64,000 bases of DNA. It comes from Ulva prolifera. Lineage: Eukaryota; Chlorophyta; Ulvophyceae; Ulvales; Ulvaceae. Below are positions 9,090-59,639 of the stretch, one piece after another. Position numbers and translations under genes: made by a program. Where the stretch lies: contig CM041204.1 in assembly GCA_023078555.1 (NCBI GenBank), positions 1,708,923 through 1,772,922 on the forward strand. Direction: 5' to 3'. The notes under the pieces are model-generated. The model was given only the letters and a program-made list of their open reading frames with translations. It was not told the origin of the DNA and did no database searches. The stretch's first letter is position 1. Each line of letters begins with the position of its first letter.

Positions 9090-12000
9090 CTACATACTGG
9101 ACATAGAATTCTGTATCCCATTTGTCAGTAAATACACCATGTCGTCCATCTCGACGCCCTGAGATTCGATTGTATCGGCAGCATCGTCGGCTATGATGGG
9201 CTGAAGAGGTGGCCTTGCACAGCTCAACGGGGCCTCGCGCACTGCAGCTGCGTTCTCCTTCTCCAAAACTTTATCCACCCACTTTGCTGAACGCTCATCG
9301 AATGTACTAGCTGTCTTCTTTGTGTCTGCTTTGATCTTCCTGCTGGTCTTGACAAACTTGGCACCCGAAGTAGGTCGAACACAATGGTTAGCCTCGACTG
9401 CATTCGATGATGTTTGTGGTCTGCTGCGCTTTCCAGCACAGTCATCTCTTCTCTGCAAAGCAGTTTTATGCCTTGTCACCTGTGGAACGTAACTCTGCAC
9501 ACAGTGGCCTTCTCGTGCAGCAATGTGGCCTGTAGCTACCACACTAGACCTCCGCGAGTGATGAAGGGCTTGCTTGAGCTCGGCCAAAACTGTTGTGAAG
9601 CTGCCGTAAATCCTCCTGCGGAGGTGCGCAGGGAGGTCACGATCACTGAACTGTTCAATAATCTCCTGTGCACCAGCCATCAGCTCTGAACCTCTCCTGT
9701 CTTGCTCGATCTTAGAAGGCGTTCGCTTTTCAGTGATCACTGCAGCGCTACTGACAGCAATGCCTTCAGTGTCGCAAGCAGCAGTTCCTGATCCTGCAGC
9801 TGCTTTGCAAGGCGTTCTTTGGGACGGTGCACACGTAAGCACTTCACAATCTTTTGCCTTTTCACCAGCCTGTGGCGTTTGCATCATACTCAGCGCTCGC
9901 ACAAGTGGTGCGATTCCACCCTTGCCAAGGTGACAGTGTCCCATTGCTCCGAAGTTAGAACCAGCATGCTTGACGCACATGTTCAAGAATGCATCTGTGT
10001 TCTTCTGAGCGACTTCTGGAAACATAGTAGCGAGCGCCAACATGTGGTGGACACAGAAGAGCTGCTGGCGGCCTGCATCGCAACTACAGCAGTTGTGGTC
10101 CTCATCACAAGCAGTGAGCATGTACTGCTTGCCCTGCACAGTGACACGAGCACTTGTTGAGTTCGTATGCTCATGAGTCAGCTCCACAAGCGACGTCGTC
10201 TGCATGCAATGCAGCTCCAGAATCTTTTTTACATCTGTAGCTATCTCAAGCAGTGCTTCCTCACGTTTATGATTGCGAACCAAGCCTGCACACACATGGA
10301 CAGTGACATACTGCATTTGCAGCAGGTTGACCTGTTGTGGCACATGGCACTTCATGCGCACCAGCTGCGAGTAGTGCTCTGGAGTTGTAGTAGTTTGGCA
10401 TGATGGTCGAAAACAGGTGGAGAATGAGCTGGTCCACTCGGAACAGATGTTTTCGACCGGTGACTCGGTCTAGCACACTCTTGGCGGAAGAGTTGAAGCC
10501 TTCACATACTCCAGTGGTCCTTTGTGCGGCGAAGCAAGTGAATGTGCATACACTCACCACCCACTTTCCTGCATACTCGGGTGCTTTCAGGATGCAGGGC
10601 CTTTGGCATGCTACAGATGTCAGTGAAGCGGCAAACTTACTGAGTTTTGGCTGCCATTGCTTCTTGACGTACTGCACGGCTCCAGGCTGTGTTTCAGACC
10701 ACCTGCAAATACCTCTGAGCTGATCTAGAAGTAGCGCCTCACACAAGTGACACATCTTGAGGATGCGCCTACCTTGTGCACCATTCATCAAGCATCTTTG
10801 ATGCAAGCGCAAGCGTCTGCTCTTCAGTGTCGCAGGCTTTCATATACATGATGGCCACAAGTCCTTTCTCCATGGCGTGATAGGCTTCTGCTCTTTCTGC
10901 CGGCCTGCCCGATGTTTTGCCTTGCAATTGCTGCTGCAAAGCTGCTCGGACATGATAGAGACATAAGCCTTGTACAGCATACGGGAAGACAGAGCTGGCA
11001 GCTTTCTGATTAGCTGCTGAATCATCCGTCAGAATGGAGGCAGGCTGCAAATTGCTGCTTCCTTCTCCACCCTCGTTCAATGCTTGTTTGAAAACTTGAA
11101 GCACCTTCTCGAAACTTGCTGCGTCCTCATGCATCATAATGGCGAAACAGACAGGCAGCCCTTTGCCCCGCTCATCGACTGCAAGCATCACGAGCAAAGA
11201 AAACCCATATCTGTTGGTTCCAAAAGTGGTGTCCATCACAAGGACTCGACCAGGAACGAATTCCCTTGCCCATTTCATCATCTGATCATTTGCTAGGATA
11301 ATGAGGCAGTCCTGCTCATTGTTGATCACCGGCTCTGCAAGAAAAATCCTTGGCTCGGAGCTGCCGTCCTGTCCATACTGCAAGGAGTCAAATTCTCAGT
11401 GATGAAAGATTGGAGTGGGCGAGTGAGTTATTCTTTGGACAGGCTTACCCTGATGGTCACAGAAATGGCATCCTCGGGATTCTTTTTAAACATAGCTGTC
11501 GCTATCTGCCTGCGCAAATTTGCAAGGAACGTGTTGTCGATCGTAGCGTCCTTTACGAAGGGTGTCTGCACAAGTTGTGACATCAACGTGTGAGGCTCTG
11601 CAGAAGGTAGTCCGGCTTCGGTTGCAAGCCGTTGCAGGTTGCCTGCACATGCGGAATCTTTCCAGTCCCATACATCAGACAGCTTAACCACACCATGTGA
11701 TGTAGATCGCACTCTGCAGTATCAAAGGATTTGGTACTCCATCTGTGATTCTGGCAGCACAGAATGCTCTTGTTGCATCGCTGACCTTCAAAGGCTGGTG
11801 TGCACAGCCCTTTTCATTTGGATCACTACTGTGCTTCCCATGATTATGCAAGACGATATACAGATCATTGGGATGATTGCGAAACACCCGACAGTGCATG
11901 CTGTACCGGCAAGCACAACATGTGGCACCAGTGCCCCTAGCATCTTTCCCTACTCGAGTAGGACATTTTTTGCCAGATGCCTGGCCTGAGTTCGTAGCCA

Positions 12001-39184: not shown

Positions 39185-42100
39185 ATGGTGACGGTGGTGC
39201 GCGGCGCGCAAGAGCTGCAGGCCGCGGTGGCCGCAGGGGCTCGCGACATCGAGATCCGCAGCCACCTCAACCTCACCGCCCTCCAGCCCCTGGAGGACCC
39301 TGATGGATTTGACGCCCCTTCTCATCTGATGCATGTGGACAGCGCGATCCGATCGATGAGGGTGCGGCCTCGAACATGCAGACATGTGCGCGGGCTCTGT
39401 GGCCCTTTATACCTGTTCCGAGCTGCATGCCTGTCACTGCCACAGCGCCTGGGTAGCTGTAGGATTGGTGCCTCTGAGATACCTCATTAACACCGAGGCT
39501 AGTCCTGAGTTTTGGAGTTGTACACGGCAATGCCCAGCAGGTCGACCCCGGACACAGACCCCACGTCGAACCCGAAGACAGCATCACACCACAGCCACTC
39601 ACATCACAGCCACCCACATCACACCACAGCGCGCATGCTCTGGGGCACTGGTGTGCTTGTGCGTTTCCATGGCGGTGCCACCGGCCTCTATGACTTTCTC
39701 CTTTTGACACATATGACACATATGTCACATATACATGCATACCTGGCCATGGAATCATTGATGATGATCGTGCGTGCGGAGCCTGGCCGCGCCACCGCCA
39801 CCGCCACCGCCTCCGTGGCCCAGCACAATTCACAAAACACGAGCCCGTGTGGATCCCGGGGTCACATGCGGTCCCATTCACTCATATATAGTTGTCAACG
39901 CCATCTTAAGAATGCAGCTCATTGAATCATATGGACTTGACTTTACATTACTCTGTACACGATCAGAGGCCCCGCACGAGACTATTCTGCATGAGAAAGG
40001 GTCGACAGGGGCGCACATGGCTGCTGCGTGATGTGTACATTGAACTCAGACTAGGCTGCATATGCGCCGCTTTGCAAGGTCGCGATCGTGGGATAGCAGA
40101 TATCGAGGCCTTCCAGGGTCCATGCGTGCATATGTTTTGTACTAGTAGGGGTCACGTGCTGTGATGCGCACTCACTGTGCATGCAGGGAGTCTGCGAGGA
40201 GGCACCGCCCAGCATTGTCGGCGCAGACGCAGTCCACCTGAAGCCACGGCAGTGCGTGGTCACCGTTGGAGGCTCCATGATGCAGTTCCTAGGCGGCCGC
40301 CAGTGGCTCGACAACCTCCTCTTCCGCCTGCAGCGCACCCGTGTGGACCCCGGCTTCACCCTGATTGATGTCTACATGTCGGGGGCGTTCTCTTCGACCG
40401 GAGATTCCCCGGAGCCCGTGTCTCATGTGTATCTCACCAACGTGACGGTGCAGGGCGACCGCTTCCGCGCTGGATCGGCGGCTGTGCTCAACGCCACAAG
40501 CTCCTCGAGGGTGCTAGTGGAAGGTACGCGTGTGCTCGCAGCTTCTGCTATGCATGCATACAAGTCACACACATGCTCACGAACGAGGACATTCCTGTGG
40601 AGATCTTGATGTGAGTGTATTTTGCAGACTGTGAGTTCAAGGACATATTCGGCGGCACAATCGGCATGTTTCACCTGTCTGGCAGATCATCGGCCGCATT
40701 CGTCCGCACCAGCTTCCGCAACATCAGCCTGAATGGAGCGATCGTCGACGTCGGCGGCGGCGGCATCGTGCAGTTCACAAACACCACGTTCGCCGAAGTC
40801 CAGGTGCCAGATGACACCTGGGTCACCGCCAACTACGATGATTACACCGACTCTTGGGCATATGAGTTCAACCAATGGGGGAGCCTACGCGGCGTTTCTA
40901 ATCCGGATATTCCACTTGACAGCAACCAGCACGTCCCGCGCGTGCGTGCTCCACGGCCTGAGGGGCGAGGAGCGCCCGGCCCCGGTGATCCCGGCAGTGC
41001 AATTGGCGCGTGTGCGGCTGACGAGGCATACGTTGTGCCGTACGCCATGCTCTACAATGAGGCATATGCTGTAGGAGAGACGCTGTGGCAGAACTCCAAC
41101 AATGCCTACAGCTACACAGGGGACTACGAGGACAGTACTAGTCCTGGGCCTGGATCTGCAGTGACGCCTGACAACACTGCCGACAGCCCCAGCGACTCGC
41201 CAGCCAACGTTCAAGGTGTGCAGCCCACGAGCCAGGCAGAGTCGACATGTGGGCGCTGTATGCATATGCATGAGTCTCCCTGAAAACAGCGTCGGCCGAG
41301 GAGGGCTGCCAACATGTTCTCTGTACAGAGAACATGCTGTCCGAAGCGCGCTCAGTCACTGACTGCACTTGCTGATACAGAAAATATAAAAAATACTCAG
41401 CAGCCTGCAGGTGGCATGCAGCAGTGTTGGGTCGCTTTGCAGCATTTCGGGGCTGCCACCCAGAAATTAGACCTGAATATTCGGAATGGTTACATATGGA
41501 TTCATTAATGGGGCCCGACGACCCAACAATGACCTGCAGTGCAGCCGTGTCCAAATGTACATCTGCACATGCAGTGTTGTCGGAGATGCCGTTTGCCAAC
41601 AACAGTCTCGTGATGTCTGTCAGCCTTATAATCGGTGGCTTTCGGTCAGCATGGTGCTGATCTGCAATGCATGTCATACTTCAGAAAGCCCTTGATCTAT
41701 GCATGGGTCAGCATGAGAATGCGAGCGTACATGTGCATTGTATTTCTGTACATACAGCCCAGGGTGAACACTGGCAGCAAACTGTTGCAAGGCCCCGTCG
41801 GACTAGCTAGTCCTCTATAGATTTCGATCTGTCCTGGTCCTCCAAGGATGCACTGAGCAGGCGACATCTAGTTGCGATTGACTTCCGATCGGTGTGGTGT
41901 CGAAGAACTGGTGTACATGTGGTGACGGCAGTGGTGATCTTTGGTGCAGTTGAGCCTGAGAGTGGTGACGCCAATGCGCCGGCCAGTGCCGCCAACGTAG
42001 ATCCGTCTGAATGGCTGCCAGAGGTACCTTTTCTCACTCCAAATGACACCTGGATCATCGACACGCGCAGTAGCCTCCCGCAGTACCACTCACGAGACGC

Positions 42101-47718: not shown

Positions 47719-50700
47719 AAACTGCACAGTTCACTGCACATGTGAGTTGCCGAATGGATTTGCAGCTCAGGTGTGCCAGTGGCTGCCTCAGCTCCTTCAC
47801 AAAAAATTCAGCATGCTCACAGAAGCGGGAAACCAGCATGCACGTGCGACGTATGCAGCCAGCACCCAACCCAGCCTTGGGCTGCTGGAGCTCAAACTGC
47901 ACAGTTCACTGCACATGTGAGTTGATGAATGAATATGCAGCTCAGGCGCGCCAGTGGCAGCCTCAGCTCCTTCACAAAAAAGTCAGCATGCTCACAGAAG
48001 CGGGAAACCAGCATGCACGTGCGACGTATGCAGCCAGCACCCAACCCAGCCTTGGGCTGCTGGAGCTCAAACTGCACAGTTCACTGCACATGTGAGTTGC
48101 CGAATGGATTTGCAGCTCAGGTGTGCCAGTGGCAGCCTCAGCTCCTTCACAAAAAATTCAGCATGCTCACAGAGCGGGAAACCAGCATGCACGTGCGACG
48201 TATGCAGCCAGCACCCAACCCAGCCTTGGGCTGCTGGAGCTCAAACTGCACAGTTCACTGCACATGTGAGTTGCCGAATGGATTTGCAGCTCAGGTGTGC
48301 CAGTGGCTGCCTCAGCTCCTTCACAAAAAATTCAGCATGCTCACAGAAGCGGGAAACCAGCATGCACGTGCGACGTATGCAGCCAGCACCCAACCCAGCC
48401 TTGGGCTGCTGGAGCTCAAACTGCACAGTTCACTGCACATGTGAGTTGATGAATGAATATGCAGCTCAGGCGCGCCAGTGGCAGCCTCAGCTCCTTCACA
48501 AAAAAGTCAGCATGCTCACAGAAGCGGGAAACCAGCATGCACGTGCGACGTATGCAGCCAGCACCAAACCCAGCCTTGGGCTGCTGGAGCTCAAACTGCA
48601 CAGTTCACTGCACATGTGAGTTGCCGAATGGATTTGCAGCTCAGGTGTGCCAGTGGCAGCCTCAGCTCCTTCACAAAAATTCAGCATGCTCACAGAGCGG
48701 GAAACCAGCATGCACGTGCGACGTATGCAGCCAGCACCCAACCCAGCCTTGGGCTGCTGGAGCTCAAACTGCACAGTTCACTGCACATGTGAGTTGCCGA
48801 ATGGATTTGCAGCTCAGGTGTGCCAGTGGCAGCCTCAGCTCCTTCACAAAAAATTCAGCATGCTCACAGAGCGGGAAACCAGCATGCACGTGCGACGTAT
48901 GCAGCCAGCACCCAACCCAGCCTTGGGCTGCTGGAGCTCAAACTGCACAGTTCACTGCACATGTGAGTTGCCGAATGGATTTGCAGCTCAGGTGTGCCAG
49001 TGGCTGCCTCAGCTCCTTCACAAAAAATTCAGCATGCTCACAGAAGCGGGAAACCAGCATGCACGTGCGACGTATGCAGCCAGCACCCAACCCAGCCTTG
49101 GGCTGCTGGAGCTCAAACTGCACAGTTCACTGCACATGTGAGTTGATGAATGAATATGCAGCTCAGGCGCGCCAGTGGCAGCCTCAGCTCCTTCACAAAA
49201 AAGTCAGCATGCTCACAGAAGCGGGAAACCAGCATGCACGTGCGACGTATGCAGCCAGCACCCAACCCAGCCTTGGGCTGCTGGAGCTCAAACTGCACAG
49301 TTCACTGCACATGTGAGTTGCCGAATGGATTTGCAGCTCAGGTGTGCCAGTGGCAGCCTCAGCTCCTTCACAAAAAATTCAGCATGCTCACAGAAGCGGG
49401 AAACCAGCATGCACGTGCGACGTATGCAGCCAGCACCAAACCCAACCTTGAGCTGCTGGAGTTCAAACTGCACAGTTCACTGCACATGTGAGTTGCCGAA
49501 TGGATTTGCAGCTCAGGTGTGTCAGTGGCTGCCTCAGCTCCTTCACAAAAAAATCAGCATGTTCACAGAAGCGGGAAACCAGCATGCACGTGCGACGTAT
49601 GCAGCCAGCACCAAACCCAGCCTTGGGCTGCTGGAGCTCAAACTGCACAGTTCACTGCACATGTGAGTTGCCGAATGGATTTGCAGCTCAGGTGTGCCAG
49701 TGGCAGCCTCAGCTTCTTCAAAAAAAATCCAGCATGTACACAGAAGCGGGAAATCAGCATGCACGTGCGCCGCAAGCAGCCAGCACCAAACCCAACCTTG
49801 AGCTGCTGGAGTTCAAACTGCACAGTTCACTGCACATGTGAGTTGATGAATGAATATGCAGCTCAGGTTTGCCAGTGGCTGCCTCAGCTCCTTCTCAAAA
49901 AAGTCAGCATGCTCACAGAAGCGGGAAACCAGCATGCACGTGCGACGTATGCAGCCAGCACCCAACCCAGCCTTGGGCTGCTGGAGCTCAAACTGCACAG
50001 TTCACTGCACATGTGAGTTGCCGAATGGATTTGCAGCTCAGGTGTGCCAGTGGCAGCCTCAGCTCCTTCACAAAAAATTCAGCATGCTCACAGAGCGGGA
50101 AACCAGCATGCACGTGCGACGTATGCAGCCAGCACCCAACCCAGCCTTGGGCTGCTGGAGCTCAAACTGCACAGTTCACTGCACATGTGAGTTGCCGAAT
50201 GGATTTGCAGCTCAGGTGTGCCAGTGGCTGCCTCAGCTCCTTCACAAAAAATTCAGCATGCTCACAGAAGCGGGAAACCAGCATGCACGTGCGACGTATG
50301 CAGCCAGCACCCAACCCAGCCTTGGGCTGCTGGAGCTCAAACTGCACAGTTCACTGCACATGTGAGTTGATGAATGAATATGCAGCTCAGGCGCGCCAGT
50401 GGCAGCCTCAGCTCCTTCACAAAAAAGTCAGCATGCTCACAGAAGCGGGAAACCAGCATGCACGTGCGACGTATGCAGCCAGCACCAAACCCAGCCTTGG
50501 GCTGCTGGAGCTCAAACTGCACAGTTCACTGCACATGTGAGTTGCCGAATGGATTTGCAGCTCAGGTGTGCCAGTGGCAGCCTCAGCTCCTTCACAAAAA
50601 ATTCAGCATGCTCACAGAGCGGGAAACCAGCATGCACGTGCGACGTATGCAGCCAGCACCCAACCCAGCCTTGGGCTGCTGGAGCTCAAACTGCACAGTT

Positions 50701-51840
50701 CACTGCACATGTGAGTTGCCGAATGGATTTGCAGCTCAGGTGTGCCAGTGGCAGCCTCAGCTCCTTCACAAAAAATTCAGCATGCTCACAGAGCGGGAAA
50801 CCAGCATGCACGTGCGACGTATGCAGCCAGCACCCAACCCAGCCTTGGGCTGCTGGAGCTCAAACTGCACAGTTCACTGCACATGTGAGTTGCCGAATGG
50901 ATTTGCAGCTCAGGTGTGCCAGTGGCTGCCTCAGCTCCTTCACAAAAAATTCAGCATGCTCACAGAAGCGGGAAACCAGCATGCACGTGCGACGTATGCA
51001 GCCAGCACCCAACCCAGCCTTGGGCTGCTGGAGCTCAAACTGCACAGTTCACTGCACATGTGAGTTGATGAATGAATATGCAGCTCAGGCGCGCCAGTGG
51101 CAGCCTCAGCTCCTTCACAAAAAAGTCAGCATGCTCACAGAAGCGGGAAACCAGCATGCACGTGCGACGTATGCAGCCAGCACCCAACCCAGCCTTGGGC
51201 TGCTGGAGCTCAAACTGCACAGTTCACTGCACATGTGAGTTGCCGAATGGATTTGCAGCTCAGGTGTGCCAGTGGCAGCCTCAGCTCCTTCACAAAAAAT
51301 TCAGCATGCTCACAGAAGCGGGAAACCAGCATGCACGTGCGACGTATGCAGCCAGCACCAAACCCAACCTTGAGCTGCTGGAGTTCAAACTGCACAGTTC
51401 ACTGCACATGTGAGTTGCCGAATGGATTTGCAGCTCAGGTGTGTCAGTGGCTGCCTCAGCTCCTTCACAAAAAAATCAGCATGTTCACAGAAGCGGGAAA
51501 CCAGCATGCACGTGCGACGTATGCAGCCAGCACCAAACCCAGCCTTGGGCTGCTGGAGCTCAAACTGCACAGTTCACTGCACATGTGAGTTGCCGAATGG
51601 ATTTGCAGCTCAGGTGTGCCAGTGGCAGCCTCAGCTTCTTCAAAAAAAATCCAGCATGTACACAGAAGCGGGAAATCAGCATGCACGTGCGCCGCAAGCA
51701 GCCAGCACCAAACCCAACCTTGAGCTGCTGGAGTTCAAACTGCACAGTTCACTGCACATGTGAGTTGATGAATGAATATGCAGCTCAGGTTTGCCAGTGG
51801 CTGCCTCAGCTCCTTCTCAAAAAATCCAGCATGCTTGTAA
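47719..51840. repeat. 175-bp satellite array with 11-monomer higher-order repeat
   Basis: About 23 full monomers of 173-175 bp plus a partial one run head to tail. Each has AAACTGCACAGTTCACTGCA, an A5-A8 run after CTCCTTC(A/T)C, and GAAACCAGCATGCACGTG. Two classes differ after GTGAGTTG: CCGAATGGATTTGC or ATGAATGAATATGC. Variants recur every eleventh monomer (about 1921-1922 bp): 49115-49850 repeats as 51037-51772, and 48453 corresponds to 50374. This makes an 11-mer higher-order repeat, present about twice. One frame per monomer has a stop, so open frames of 60-290 codons arise by chance. The array is best read as non-coding. Confidence 0.96.
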
Positions 51841-52774
51841 CAGCTGCCATGCGTAACATGTACATTTGCACCCAGGGAATGGTGGGACGTGTGGTTTGTG
51901 GACATGAAAGTGAACTCTGCGTATGGCAGGTGGACAGTGGAGAGGAGTCCATGCCGGTAGAAAAGGCAAATCTGTACAGATCAGTGTCACGAGTCGCGAC
52001 ACGTTTGGATTTGATGCAGTTTACATCCACGACTCTTTATTCTGAGCTAGAAAACTTTATCGAAGTATGATTTGGTGTGAAACACCGCGTCAAGCTGATT
52101 TAATTCCCACATACATTTCTGACTTGCTAGCTTTCGAGGTAAGCATCAGCAAGGCTGATGTCCCCAATGCTGGAAAAACTAATATTCGTGGAGGCAACCT
52201 TACTCCCCGCTTCCCTCTTAATTTGAGACCTGACGAATGGGAAATGGCATCGATTTTGCCCCTCGGCGAATGGACAGCGAGTTGGGTTTTCACCATTTCA
52301 GATTTATATCATGCTCGGATGCACCTGGCGCCTGCAAACACAGCCACAATACATTATAATTACAGCCTCTTGACTTTTTCAGGTTAGCTGTGGCGAGACA
52401 CAGGTCGTGTCATTGTCGAGTGCTAAAGGGCAGCAATCACAGACACATAAAAGGAGCAGCCACCATACCGCTCGTGCCATCTTTATGATGGCGTCGACGT
52501 TGACCTTTGACTTCAGCACGATGATGTGACGGCAGACATGGACCGTCGCGACTGGATGGCGGAGCTGGGGTCTGGTGCTGCCTACGCCATCGCTGTGGGG
52601 TATCCTCCCCCTACGCCACACGCACGCGGTGGCAACGCGCCTGGAGAACTTTGTCACGCCCAGCGAACGTCACTGAATCTGGCGACGGAATCCGGTCACA
52701 AGCGAGCGCATCTCCGCAGCATTGTGGTTTGACCGTCTACTCGTCGAGTGTGAGTTACTCCCAGATTTGCCACC
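51841..52774. other. Possible exons of an unidentified gene next to the satellite
   Basis: The plus-strand frame leaving the satellite reads MVGRVVCGHESELCVWQV to YSELENFIE and stops at a GTATGA donor-like site (52065). A second open piece ends CTTTCGAG before a GTAAGC donor at about 52139. Both look like exons, but no family is recognised and the first exon is not found. Confidence 0.35.
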
Positions 52775-57261: not shown

Positions 57262-59639
57262 TCACGAGTGATGAAGGATGTTGAGAGCTACCAGCTCCAG
57301 TCCGGGTGCAGCGGCGCCGACAAAGGCGAGAAAGTGCTGGTGGACACCTGCACGCTCCTCTGTGCTCTGCTGCTGCCCATCGATCTTGACAATTTGGTAG
57401 GAGAAGCGCGACAGCGCCGGCAGTGCGCAGACAAAGCGAGACACCGCGTCGACTCTCTCACGGACCGGCGGCAGCGGCAGCGTGAGGTGCTGAAGTGCGG
57501 GCCATGACCCCTCCGGAGCATGTGCGGCGAGAGCCTCCGCCATCTGTCCGCCCTGAGCTCCGCAATCACTGGCAAACACGAGGCTTGTGAGCGAGGCCAG
57601 TGCGGCAAGGCAGAGGATGCAGTCTTGAACTTCGCCGTGGCGCACAGTGAAGCGCGTCAGATGCAGCTGCTGCAGGTGCGGCATGCATGTGACCGCTCGG
57701 AGGTCCGCGCTGCTCTGCACGCACCCCCAGCTGCGGACGTGCAGCCCCGTCAGCTGTGTCAGCGCCTCGAGAGAGGGCAGGCCCGTCACGTCATGGCACT
57801 GGCCGAGATGGAGATCAAGCTGGTGTAGGCCAGCCAAGCAGCTGCGGGTGAGGGCAGCAAGCGCCCGTCGCCATGAGAGCTGCTTGACAGATGCCCGACC
57901 GTCCCGGAATGTGAACTTCTGAGCATGTACCTCGAGGCTCAGGCTGCTGAGTGCCTGCGCGCCATCCGCCAGCAGCGGCAGGGCTAGCTCAAGTACGTCA
58001 TAATCTGCGGCGACAGTGACATGGTGCAACTGGGGCAGTGCCGCCAGTGTCAGTGGGACACACTCAGCGATGGCATCGCAAGTTGGGCGGACATCTACAG
58101 TCTGATAAAGGCCGCCGGCCTGCTGAGATCGCCGGAGTGCCAGACTTTGTAGCAGAGTGAAGTGTGCGAGGCGGCTGAGGAGGGCGTGGTAGCTGGATGC
58201 ACCACCTGGCGCGCCGCATAGGAGATGGTCAAGTGAAATATCGAGGCTTGTCAGCGGGGCTCGCAGGCGCTCAAGCAGAGATTGGCATGTGAGGTTTGGA
58301 CACATGCCTACGGTCGAGAAGGTAAGCTCGCAAAGTGCCGGCAAAGGGACTTGTTGTCTAGCGAGGAAGCATGCATCCCCTGGCAGATCAGTGCGGAGGT
58401 AGAGGGCCGTGAGGGTGGTGGCAGCGGCCAGCATTGCCGCGACGCCGCAGGCTTCGGCTTGTTGAGAAAGCATGTCTCGCGGCCGCTTGTAGGCTTCGAC
58501 GTCATGCCAGTGGGTCAGCACGAGATGCAGGGACTGAAGTCGAGGCCAGGCGGCGAACGTCTGCCGCAAGACGGCCAGCGTGGCTGTGCTGGCGGTGGAG
58601 TGCAGCTGGAAGCACTGAATAGAGCTGAGAGCGGCAAGAGCTGGGGAGAGCAGGCACACTGATGGCCCATCTATGCAGTGCACAGAGAGTCTCAGGCTGG
58701 TGAGGCCTGTGTGGTGGTGCAGGGCCTCGGCGAGGGCTGACGCCGCCTGTCGCCACGATTTCCTCGTCATGTTGTCTGGAGAGTCCGAGTTGGTTTGATC
58801 GTGATCTTCGGTGCTGAGGGACAGCACCGATGGCGGAGCGACGGAGAGCCCTGCCAGGGCTTCGACCAGCGGGAGGGAGTGGTCATCGAGGCGCAAGGTC
58901 AGCTGTTTGTCGGGCGTGATGAGAGTTTCTAGCACCGTTGGATGCAGGTGGCTTGGGAGGAAGGCGAGCAGCTGGCGCAGCGTGGGGCCCCGCCACGGCG
59001 TATGGCGGGGATCGTTGCGGGCGGCTTGCGAGAATACACGCTGCTTGCACGGCTGCGGCAAGTTGGACAGGCTCTCGAAGACGTCCTGGAGGGCGTCGTC
59101 TCGGTTGCCGTCGTCCGCAGATGCATGCTGCATTACTCGACACGCTATCATGTCCTCCCACGCATGCACATGCTTGTCATCCAAAGCGTCTGCGACCTGC
59201 AGCAAGCACCGTCGCACACTGTGTCACGGGTTTCTAGATGCCAGATCAGGGACAGGAATCCTCGTTGGGAAGGAGTGAAGTTCAGCGGTGTTGCCTTTAC
59301 AAGCGCTAGCGTGCGTGCGGGAGATCAACAGAGGTATGAAGAAAGCCCCACCTTCACGAGAGTGCAGAGGGTGGGCACGTCCATGCCCTCAAATGAATTA
59401 GCATCATCTATGGTGGTATTGATCCATGTCTTGAACTGGGGCATCGAGACGCTGTCCGGCAGCAGTGCTTCCCCCGCTGCAGCTTCTGCGACCGCCGACA
59501 GCACCCCGCTCCTGTCGCACACACGAGCGTCCAGAGCAATAGAATCGGTGCCATCATTGAAATGTAGCTTCACTGAACCATCCGATTGGATCGCTGTGCT
59601 CTTCACACATACACGTCGACGTCCCCCAAGTTCAACCAT
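57262..59639 (-). CDS. SKP1/POZ-like domain fused to leucine-rich repeats (2 exons, 740 aa)
   Basis: Exon 1 is 59639-59352 (96 codons) and exon 2 is 59196-57262 (stop 57264-57262), joined in phase 0 across a 155-bp intron (GTGGGG donor, GCTGCAG acceptor). The first 130 residues follow the SKP1/POZ layout: VKLHFNDGTDSIALDARVCD, then PDSVSMPQFKTWINTTIDD, then TLCTLVKVADALDDKHVHAW, which spans the splice junction and matches the SKP1 LFELILAANYLDIKGL helix region. The remaining 600 residues carry about a dozen LxxLxL repeats (LTSLRLSV, LQSLHLVL, LTALYLR, LTSLDISL, LHQLDLHL, LQQLHLTRF, LQHLTLPL), like RNI-type LRRs of F-box proteins. SKP1 normally bridges Cullin-1 to an F-box protein; here adaptor and substrate-binding parts would sit on one chain. 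No F-box is seen. The role is inferred from architecture only. Confidence 0.82.

Follow-up and report, generated by a model that had tools for sequence, protein, structure and literature searches.

A large, mostly tandem gene family of the green alga Ulva prolifera whose predicted proteins join a probable POZ-like domain to leucine-rich repeats

Roughly a hundred genes, most of them apparently in tandem arrays, make up in Ulva prolifera a family whose predicted proteins carry a probable POZ-like domain at the N-terminus and leucine-rich repeats (LRRs) behind it. This figure rests on the first exon; both exons were located for 55 matches. One member lies in the window, i.e. the whole stretch of 64,000 nucleotides that was analysed (contig CM041204.1, positions 1,708,923 to 1,772,922 of assembly GCA_023078555.1), to which all positions without a contig handle refer. 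The gene family matters more than the single gene, and its size and tandem arrays are the point missed by the original prediction. We suggest, with a probability of about 0.45, that its members are one-chain POZ-like adaptor-receptors, most likely of a cullin-RING ubiquitin ligase. In such a protein a divergent POZ-like domain (residues ~20-120) would be connected by a helical linker to an LRR solenoid. The POZ-like domain would dock on a cullin in the manner known for BTB and CUL3, the LRRs would choose the target, and the whole chain would thus act as substrate receptor of the ligase.

The gene in the window is encoded on the minus strand, as are all of its features given here. Exon 1 (59352..59639) codes for residues 1-96, from the start codon up to LVK in the VKVADAL helix, as delimited by reading frame and join. 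It is followed by an intron of 155 nt (59197..59351) with GT-AG borders, phase 0 and an in-frame stop, and by exon 2 (57262..59196), which includes the stop codon TGA (57262..57264). The start of exon 2 (59125..59196, residues 97-120) contributes VADALDD and the next helix, a delimitation based on the family alignment and a low-confidence model. Then come the helical linker (58870..59124, residues 121-205), which is conserved in the family and has no Pfam match, and the LRR region (57265..58869, residues 206-740) with about 15-16 repeats counted by eye. Joined in frame, the two exons yield a predicted protein of 740 residues. Exon coordinates and splice position of the original prediction were right in this respect, and the join, expected inside VKVADAL, is found at VK/VADAL.

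The 30 best of the 63 matches to exon 2 were modelled, the window gene counted in, and 25 of the 29 other loci show the same aligned intron site with GT-AG borders and phase 0. L018 has GC-AG at the family site, and the modelled joins of L012, L020 and L028 lie 3 to 9 bases away from it. With an intron site common to so many loci, the splice that had been claimed as real is real as a gene model, and the reading as a lone gene or a mis-splice was dropped since the intron site is conserved and the exons co-diverge. The intron of L005, L009 and L016 contains no stop and has a length divisible by three, which leaves one open frame across both exons; its retention in these loci would insert about 40 residues into the predicted A4 helix.

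Other features of the window were recorded as well. A tandem array with a 175-bp unit (10.5 copies, 95% match) was measured at 50000-51835 and may begin already at about 47.9 kb, as repeated open frames suggest (47933-52067). A MULE transposase domain (70.1 bits) is found at 10772-11395 on the minus strand. The open frame 40615-41280 on the plus strand resembles by eye a parallel beta-helix repeat protein and has no Pfam match at E <= 0.01.

The extent of the family was estimated with each exon separately. Exon 2 as query yielded 63 matches at E <= 0.01 in the 88.9-Mb genome, a number of matches and not of genes as some genes give two. Exon 1 gave at least 98 matches at E <= 0.1, the window gene included (97 further places), and this count is a lower bound with 100 candidates scored. 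A divergent exon 1 used as query adds 11 matches with E from 1e-13 to 0.37. A single contig, C9, carries 85 of the 98 exon-1 matches, or 86 of 109 with the divergent ones added. They span 1.47 to 4.03 Mb of this contig, with at most 18 of them in one array. Exon-1 neighbours less than 20 kb apart share the same strand in 59 of 65 cases. For 55 of the 63 exon-2 matches an exon 1 on the same strand lies at most 600 bp upstream. At least four of the other eight adjoin, by position, another match of the same gene; for C9:3270322 there is no exon-1 match nearby, and for C9:2080736 the distance to such a match is about 1.4 kb. A phylogeny of 23 full-length members places the window gene alone on a long branch (1.38), next to the array at 3.44-3.46 Mb of C9 (support 90/90).

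Some copies of the family are probably relics, to judge from stops inside exon 2 in L017, L029, C9:3293916-3295481 and C9:3306441-3307229. Divergent exon-1 matches were observed also off the main contig, namely on C2 (10.4 and 11.3-11.6 Mb), on C5 (9.0-9.1 Mb) and at C4:1750394, and these may represent other branches of the family. The divergent locus L075 on C5 contains 14 LRR-type motifs in one forward frame versus 0 and 1 in the other two (counted without shuffle control), and downstream weak matches to the LRR part of the family are present. This locus probably combines exon 1 with LRRs, too. Among viral contigs no relatives were confirmed, either with the family query or with SKP1. A scan of bacterial and archaeal genomes by peptide pattern and family profile found none as well, which is weak evidence as the scan needs one conserved peptide.

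Both exons have apparently evolved together. Pairwise distances of exon 1 and exon 2 correlate with r = 0.775 over 23 genes, a value reached by 0 of 5000 permutations; the nearest neighbour is identical by both exons in only 13 of the 23. dN/dS was determined for the 14 closest pairs, which overlap with each other and leave out the window gene. The POZ-like part ranges from 0.12 to 0.61, the linker from 0.27 to 0.61 and the LRR part from 0.34 to 0.63, with the POZ-like value below the LRR value in 13 of 14 pairs. In these relatives both parts are under constraint (dN/dS < 1). Exposed positions of the LRR strands gave 0.30-0.72 versus 0.35-0.63 elsewhere in eight close pairs. Positive selection on the LRR surface was considered and rejected, as the exposed positions exceed the rest in two of the eight pairs (0.72 and 0.67), fail to do so in the other six, and never have a ratio above 1.

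Towards its C-terminus the protein forms an LRR solenoid with some 15-16 repeats. Behind residue 200 the motif L..L.[LIVF] occurs 14 times compared with 4.5 +/- 2.0 in shuffled sequences, and 0 of 5000 shuffles reach 14. The LRR Pfam match of exon 2 in the window is sub-threshold (15.3 bits versus a cut-off of 27). Six of ten relatives have LRR Pfam matches at E <= 0.01, with L007 (47.2 versus 40) and L003 (27.1 versus 27) above cut-off, and the other four have none. A Foldseek search with the LRR model retrieved NLRC4, NLRP9 and a chain of the mouse cytoplasmic lattice, six matches having E <= 0.001 among the best 50 of 696; the query is a low-confidence model (mean pLDDT 46) and TM-scores are 0.17-0.26. 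The about a dozen LRRs of the original prediction are therefore confirmed in kind and slightly undercounted in number. Its statement that an F-box is lacking agrees with our searches, which detected none in 24 N-termini (to residue 175), in ten exon 2 proteins and in exon 2 of the window.

The nature of the N-terminal part is more difficult to define. It comprises a conserved domain of some 100 residues, with 12 columns invariant in 24 sequences. Pfam searches of 24 N-termini (residues 1-175) gave no match to BTB, Skp1 or F-box, and four further family N-termini had none to BTB or Skp1. Single-sequence and profile searches of the PDB found no relative of POZ kind, and the matches of PF03931 (3) and PF00651 (5) in the alga's own genome comprise no family exon. 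AlphaFold, run on the single sequence of exon 1, gave a model (mean pLDDT 52) that shows, with E for strand and H for helix, the succession E7-14, E23-27, E33-36, a short helix 38-40, H46-54, E56-61, H66-82 and H88-95. After the extra strand E7-14 this is the order of the POZ core up to A4, without A5. In the low-confidence model of exon 2 a helix extends over residues 7-26, and residues 97-120 of the protein would form the last helices (A4-A5) of the POZ-like domain. Structure prediction had been proposed as a check on the original claim; for exon 1 it gives the POZ order up to A4, but with a mean pLDDT of 52 and with the last helices absent. A Leu-Pro pair is invariant (38 of 38 sequences) where the third POZ strand would lie.

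Profile comparison by hhalign points in the same direction. A 38-row family profile was compared with a set of 17 sequences of SKP1, Elongin C and BTB, and the alignment covers 67 columns at a score of 22.07 and a probability of 6%. This score exceeds all 500 shuffled templates (best 21.38) and the reversed controls (11.9 and 12.1), and without the window gene it is 21.5. With templates realigned it falls to 15.9 without L062, to 17.8 without human SKP1 and to 15.4 without both; not realigned, it is 13.3 without both. When the templates were left out one by one (-M 50), 16 of 17 runs still aligned at least 63 columns, a statement on length and not on the register of each run. Against SKP1 and Elongin C alone the 38-row profile scored 17.8 (0 of 60 shuffles), and the alternative alignment A1 reached 17.5 (1 of 60) against this pair and 19.05 (1 of 60) against the mixed set. 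Templates of BTB only gave 10.2 with the 38-row profile (28 of 60), a chance-level score, and 15.7 with A1 (1 of 60). A first hhalign attempt against five SKP1 sequences returned no match, and a position-specific scoring matrix against nine targets gave z from -0.8 to 3.0, above 2 for two of them and mostly chance. A few shuffles had outlying scores of about 132, probably an artefact of the program. The clearest profile signal comes from sets with SKP1 and Elongin C; it is fragile and leans on few sequences. One of them, L062 (C2:4190860-4191132), is a Skp1_POZ-like exon of the same genome (22.4 bits, just above cut-off) that strengthens the profile link between SKP1/BTB and the Ulva family when used as template. 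As a sequence link to the family it was rejected, as the L062 exon fails to retrieve any member.

Known POZ families are mostly less than 10% identical to each other and PSI-BLAST from BTB-ZF does not reach SKP1, according to the excerpt considered (PMC1257465). As these families also fail to find each other, absent sequence matches do not exclude a POZ fold in the Ulva proteins. On balance, the N-terminus is probably a POZ fold. Of the SKP1/POZ-type N-terminus originally predicted, the order of elements and the profile alignment speak in favour, whereas a sequence match in Pfam or the PDB is missing.

If the domain is of POZ type, a receptor of the BTB-CUL3 kind is the economical reading. Three cullin loci, one clear SKP1, four BTB exons and 17 F-box-like exons (counted with the model PF12937 only) above cut-off are present in the genome, so a cullin system exists on which the domain could dock. 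The five best PDB matches of this SKP1 are among chains named SKP1-like protein 1A, 1B and 20, which we take to be plant proteins. The family would outnumber the conventional receptors that the PF12937 and BTB models detect. It is the architecture from which cullin binding and ubiquitin transfer are proposed. Direct binding of a cullin in the style of SKP1, as suggested originally, was not supported. The Asn-Tyr of the AANY helix of SKP1 contacts Cul1, and at these positions, in the inferred register, Asp (35 of 38 family sequences) and Ala (30 of 38) are found instead. In CUL3-binding BTB receptors a phi-x-E motif is linked to cullin binding; it was found in the linker of 5 of 38 family sequences. 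SKP1 binds F-box proteins through its C-terminal helices, and in the Ulva protein a helical linker is predicted behind the POZ-like domain.

Other explanations have to be weighed against this ligase receptor. The POZ-like N-terminus might, with a good deal of doubt, bind no cullin and instead mediate oligomerisation or signalling in an intracellular receptor whose LRRs serve recognition. The cullin-contact residues of SKP1 and BTB proteins are not kept, the expanded and clustered LRR genes recall recognition repertoires, and POZ domains are described in the cited excerpt as self-associating and making heteromeric contacts as well (PMC1257465). However, nothing in the family points positively to an oligomer interface or to a signalling partner, and the exposed LRR positions are clearly higher in dN/dS in just two of eight pairs and never above 1. 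It is rather unlikely that the domain has a lineage-specific alpha/beta fold unrelated to POZ, its likeness resulting from a chance hydrophobic pattern and element order. The absent Pfam and PDB sequence matches would fit, as would a profile signal that hangs on few templates and weakens with A1 as query. But the 67-column alignment surpasses 500 of 500 shuffles and by far the reversed controls, at least 63 columns stay aligned in nearly all leave-one-out runs, the POZ order of elements is predicted, and known POZ families are likewise reported, in the part of the source considered, to miss each other by sequence (PMC1257465).

Very improbable is the assumption that exon 1 and exon 2 belong to different genes, or that one is a relic, and that their fusion is an artefact of reading. 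The stops inside exon 2 of some copies (L017, L029 and two more) could be quoted for it. It is opposed by the intron site kept in 25 of 29 other modelled loci, the co-divergence of the exons (r = 0.775), the open frames through both exons in L005, L009 and L016, and the constraint on both parts (dN/dS < 1) in the 14 pairs of other members.

The one-chain adaptor-receptor proposed here has precedents. BTB proteins are regarded as uniting adaptor and receptor in a single chain (PMC4107866, in part), and the closest architecture is that of the PEX1 family in chlamydiae that are symbionts of amoebae. In Protochlamydia it has 73 members, each with LRRs and all except three with BTB, as the consulted part of its description states (PMC4209131); 43 BTB-LRR proteins had been noted earlier in the symbiont UWE25 (PMC1257465, excerpt). 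Both families have an N-terminal POZ/BTB domain followed by C-terminal LRRs, and PEX1, too, is described as large, of the birth-and-death kind and with tandem arrays among its expansions (PMC4209131 and PMC1257465, in part). By the same partial descriptions it is set apart by its bacterial origin, a proposed role as effectors and a recognisable BTB domain, whereas the Ulva genes bear introns, reside in a eukaryotic genome and have an N-terminus unrecognised by BTB or Skp1 models. Of the single-chain shortcut receptor originally postulated, the one chain with LRRs stands, and the shortcut is not unprecedented. The family is apparently a eukaryotic variant of the known single-chain BTB-type adaptor-receptors and no new kind.

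Among eukaryotes, the passages considered of a ubiquitin survey list BTB together with ankyrin, Kelch, BACK and NPH3, and LRR together with F-box (PMC4327156). F-box-LRR (FBXL) receptors of SCF ligases are alike in the LRR solenoid as target reader and in the cullin role proposed here, but they use an F-box and a separate SKP1, and in the Ulva family an F-box was not found. MATH-BTB and BTB-BACK-Kelch receptors of CUL3 share the union of adaptor and receptor in one chain and, according to the excerpt used, lineage-specific expansions (PMC1257465). They differ in their MATH or Kelch receptor part and in domains recognisable by profiles; exon 2 of the window, 24 N-termini and ten exon 2 proteins gave no Pfam match to MATH, BACK or Kelch. 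SKP1 and Elongin C resemble the family in the profile alignment of the N-terminus, the Leu-Pro of the third strand and the pattern of the A4 helix. In contrast, the Asn-Tyr of SKP1 is replaced in the family and the sequence similarity is near chance, and SKP1 and Elongin C are made up of little more than the BTB fold (PMC1257465, as excerpted). LRR families of the NLR type are similar in their clustered tandem copies, LRR region and Foldseek matches to NLRC4 and NLRP proteins, but NB-ARC or NACHT were not matched here by Pfam, and the structural match concerns only the LRR shape of a low-confidence model. Among the literature matches listed, with subscription papers mostly outside the search, no algal POZ-LRR family was found.

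In its widest form the proposal is speculative, and we hold it to be rather less than an even chance. A eukaryotic, probably green-algal lineage would use about a hundred one-piece POZ-LRR receptors as its main set of ubiquitin-ligase receptors, perhaps for an immune-like recognition, and this type is otherwise reported, as far as the cited excerpts describe it, only from bacterial symbionts. If true, the POZ-LRR repertoire would be several times the exon counts above cut-off of F-box-like (17) and BTB (4) type. Such a tandem POZ-like-LRR family would be a different route to many degradation receptors, convergent with the BTB-LRR proteins of Protochlamydia. With most of its copies arrayed on a single contig, the family offers a ready test case for the origin of receptor repertoires.
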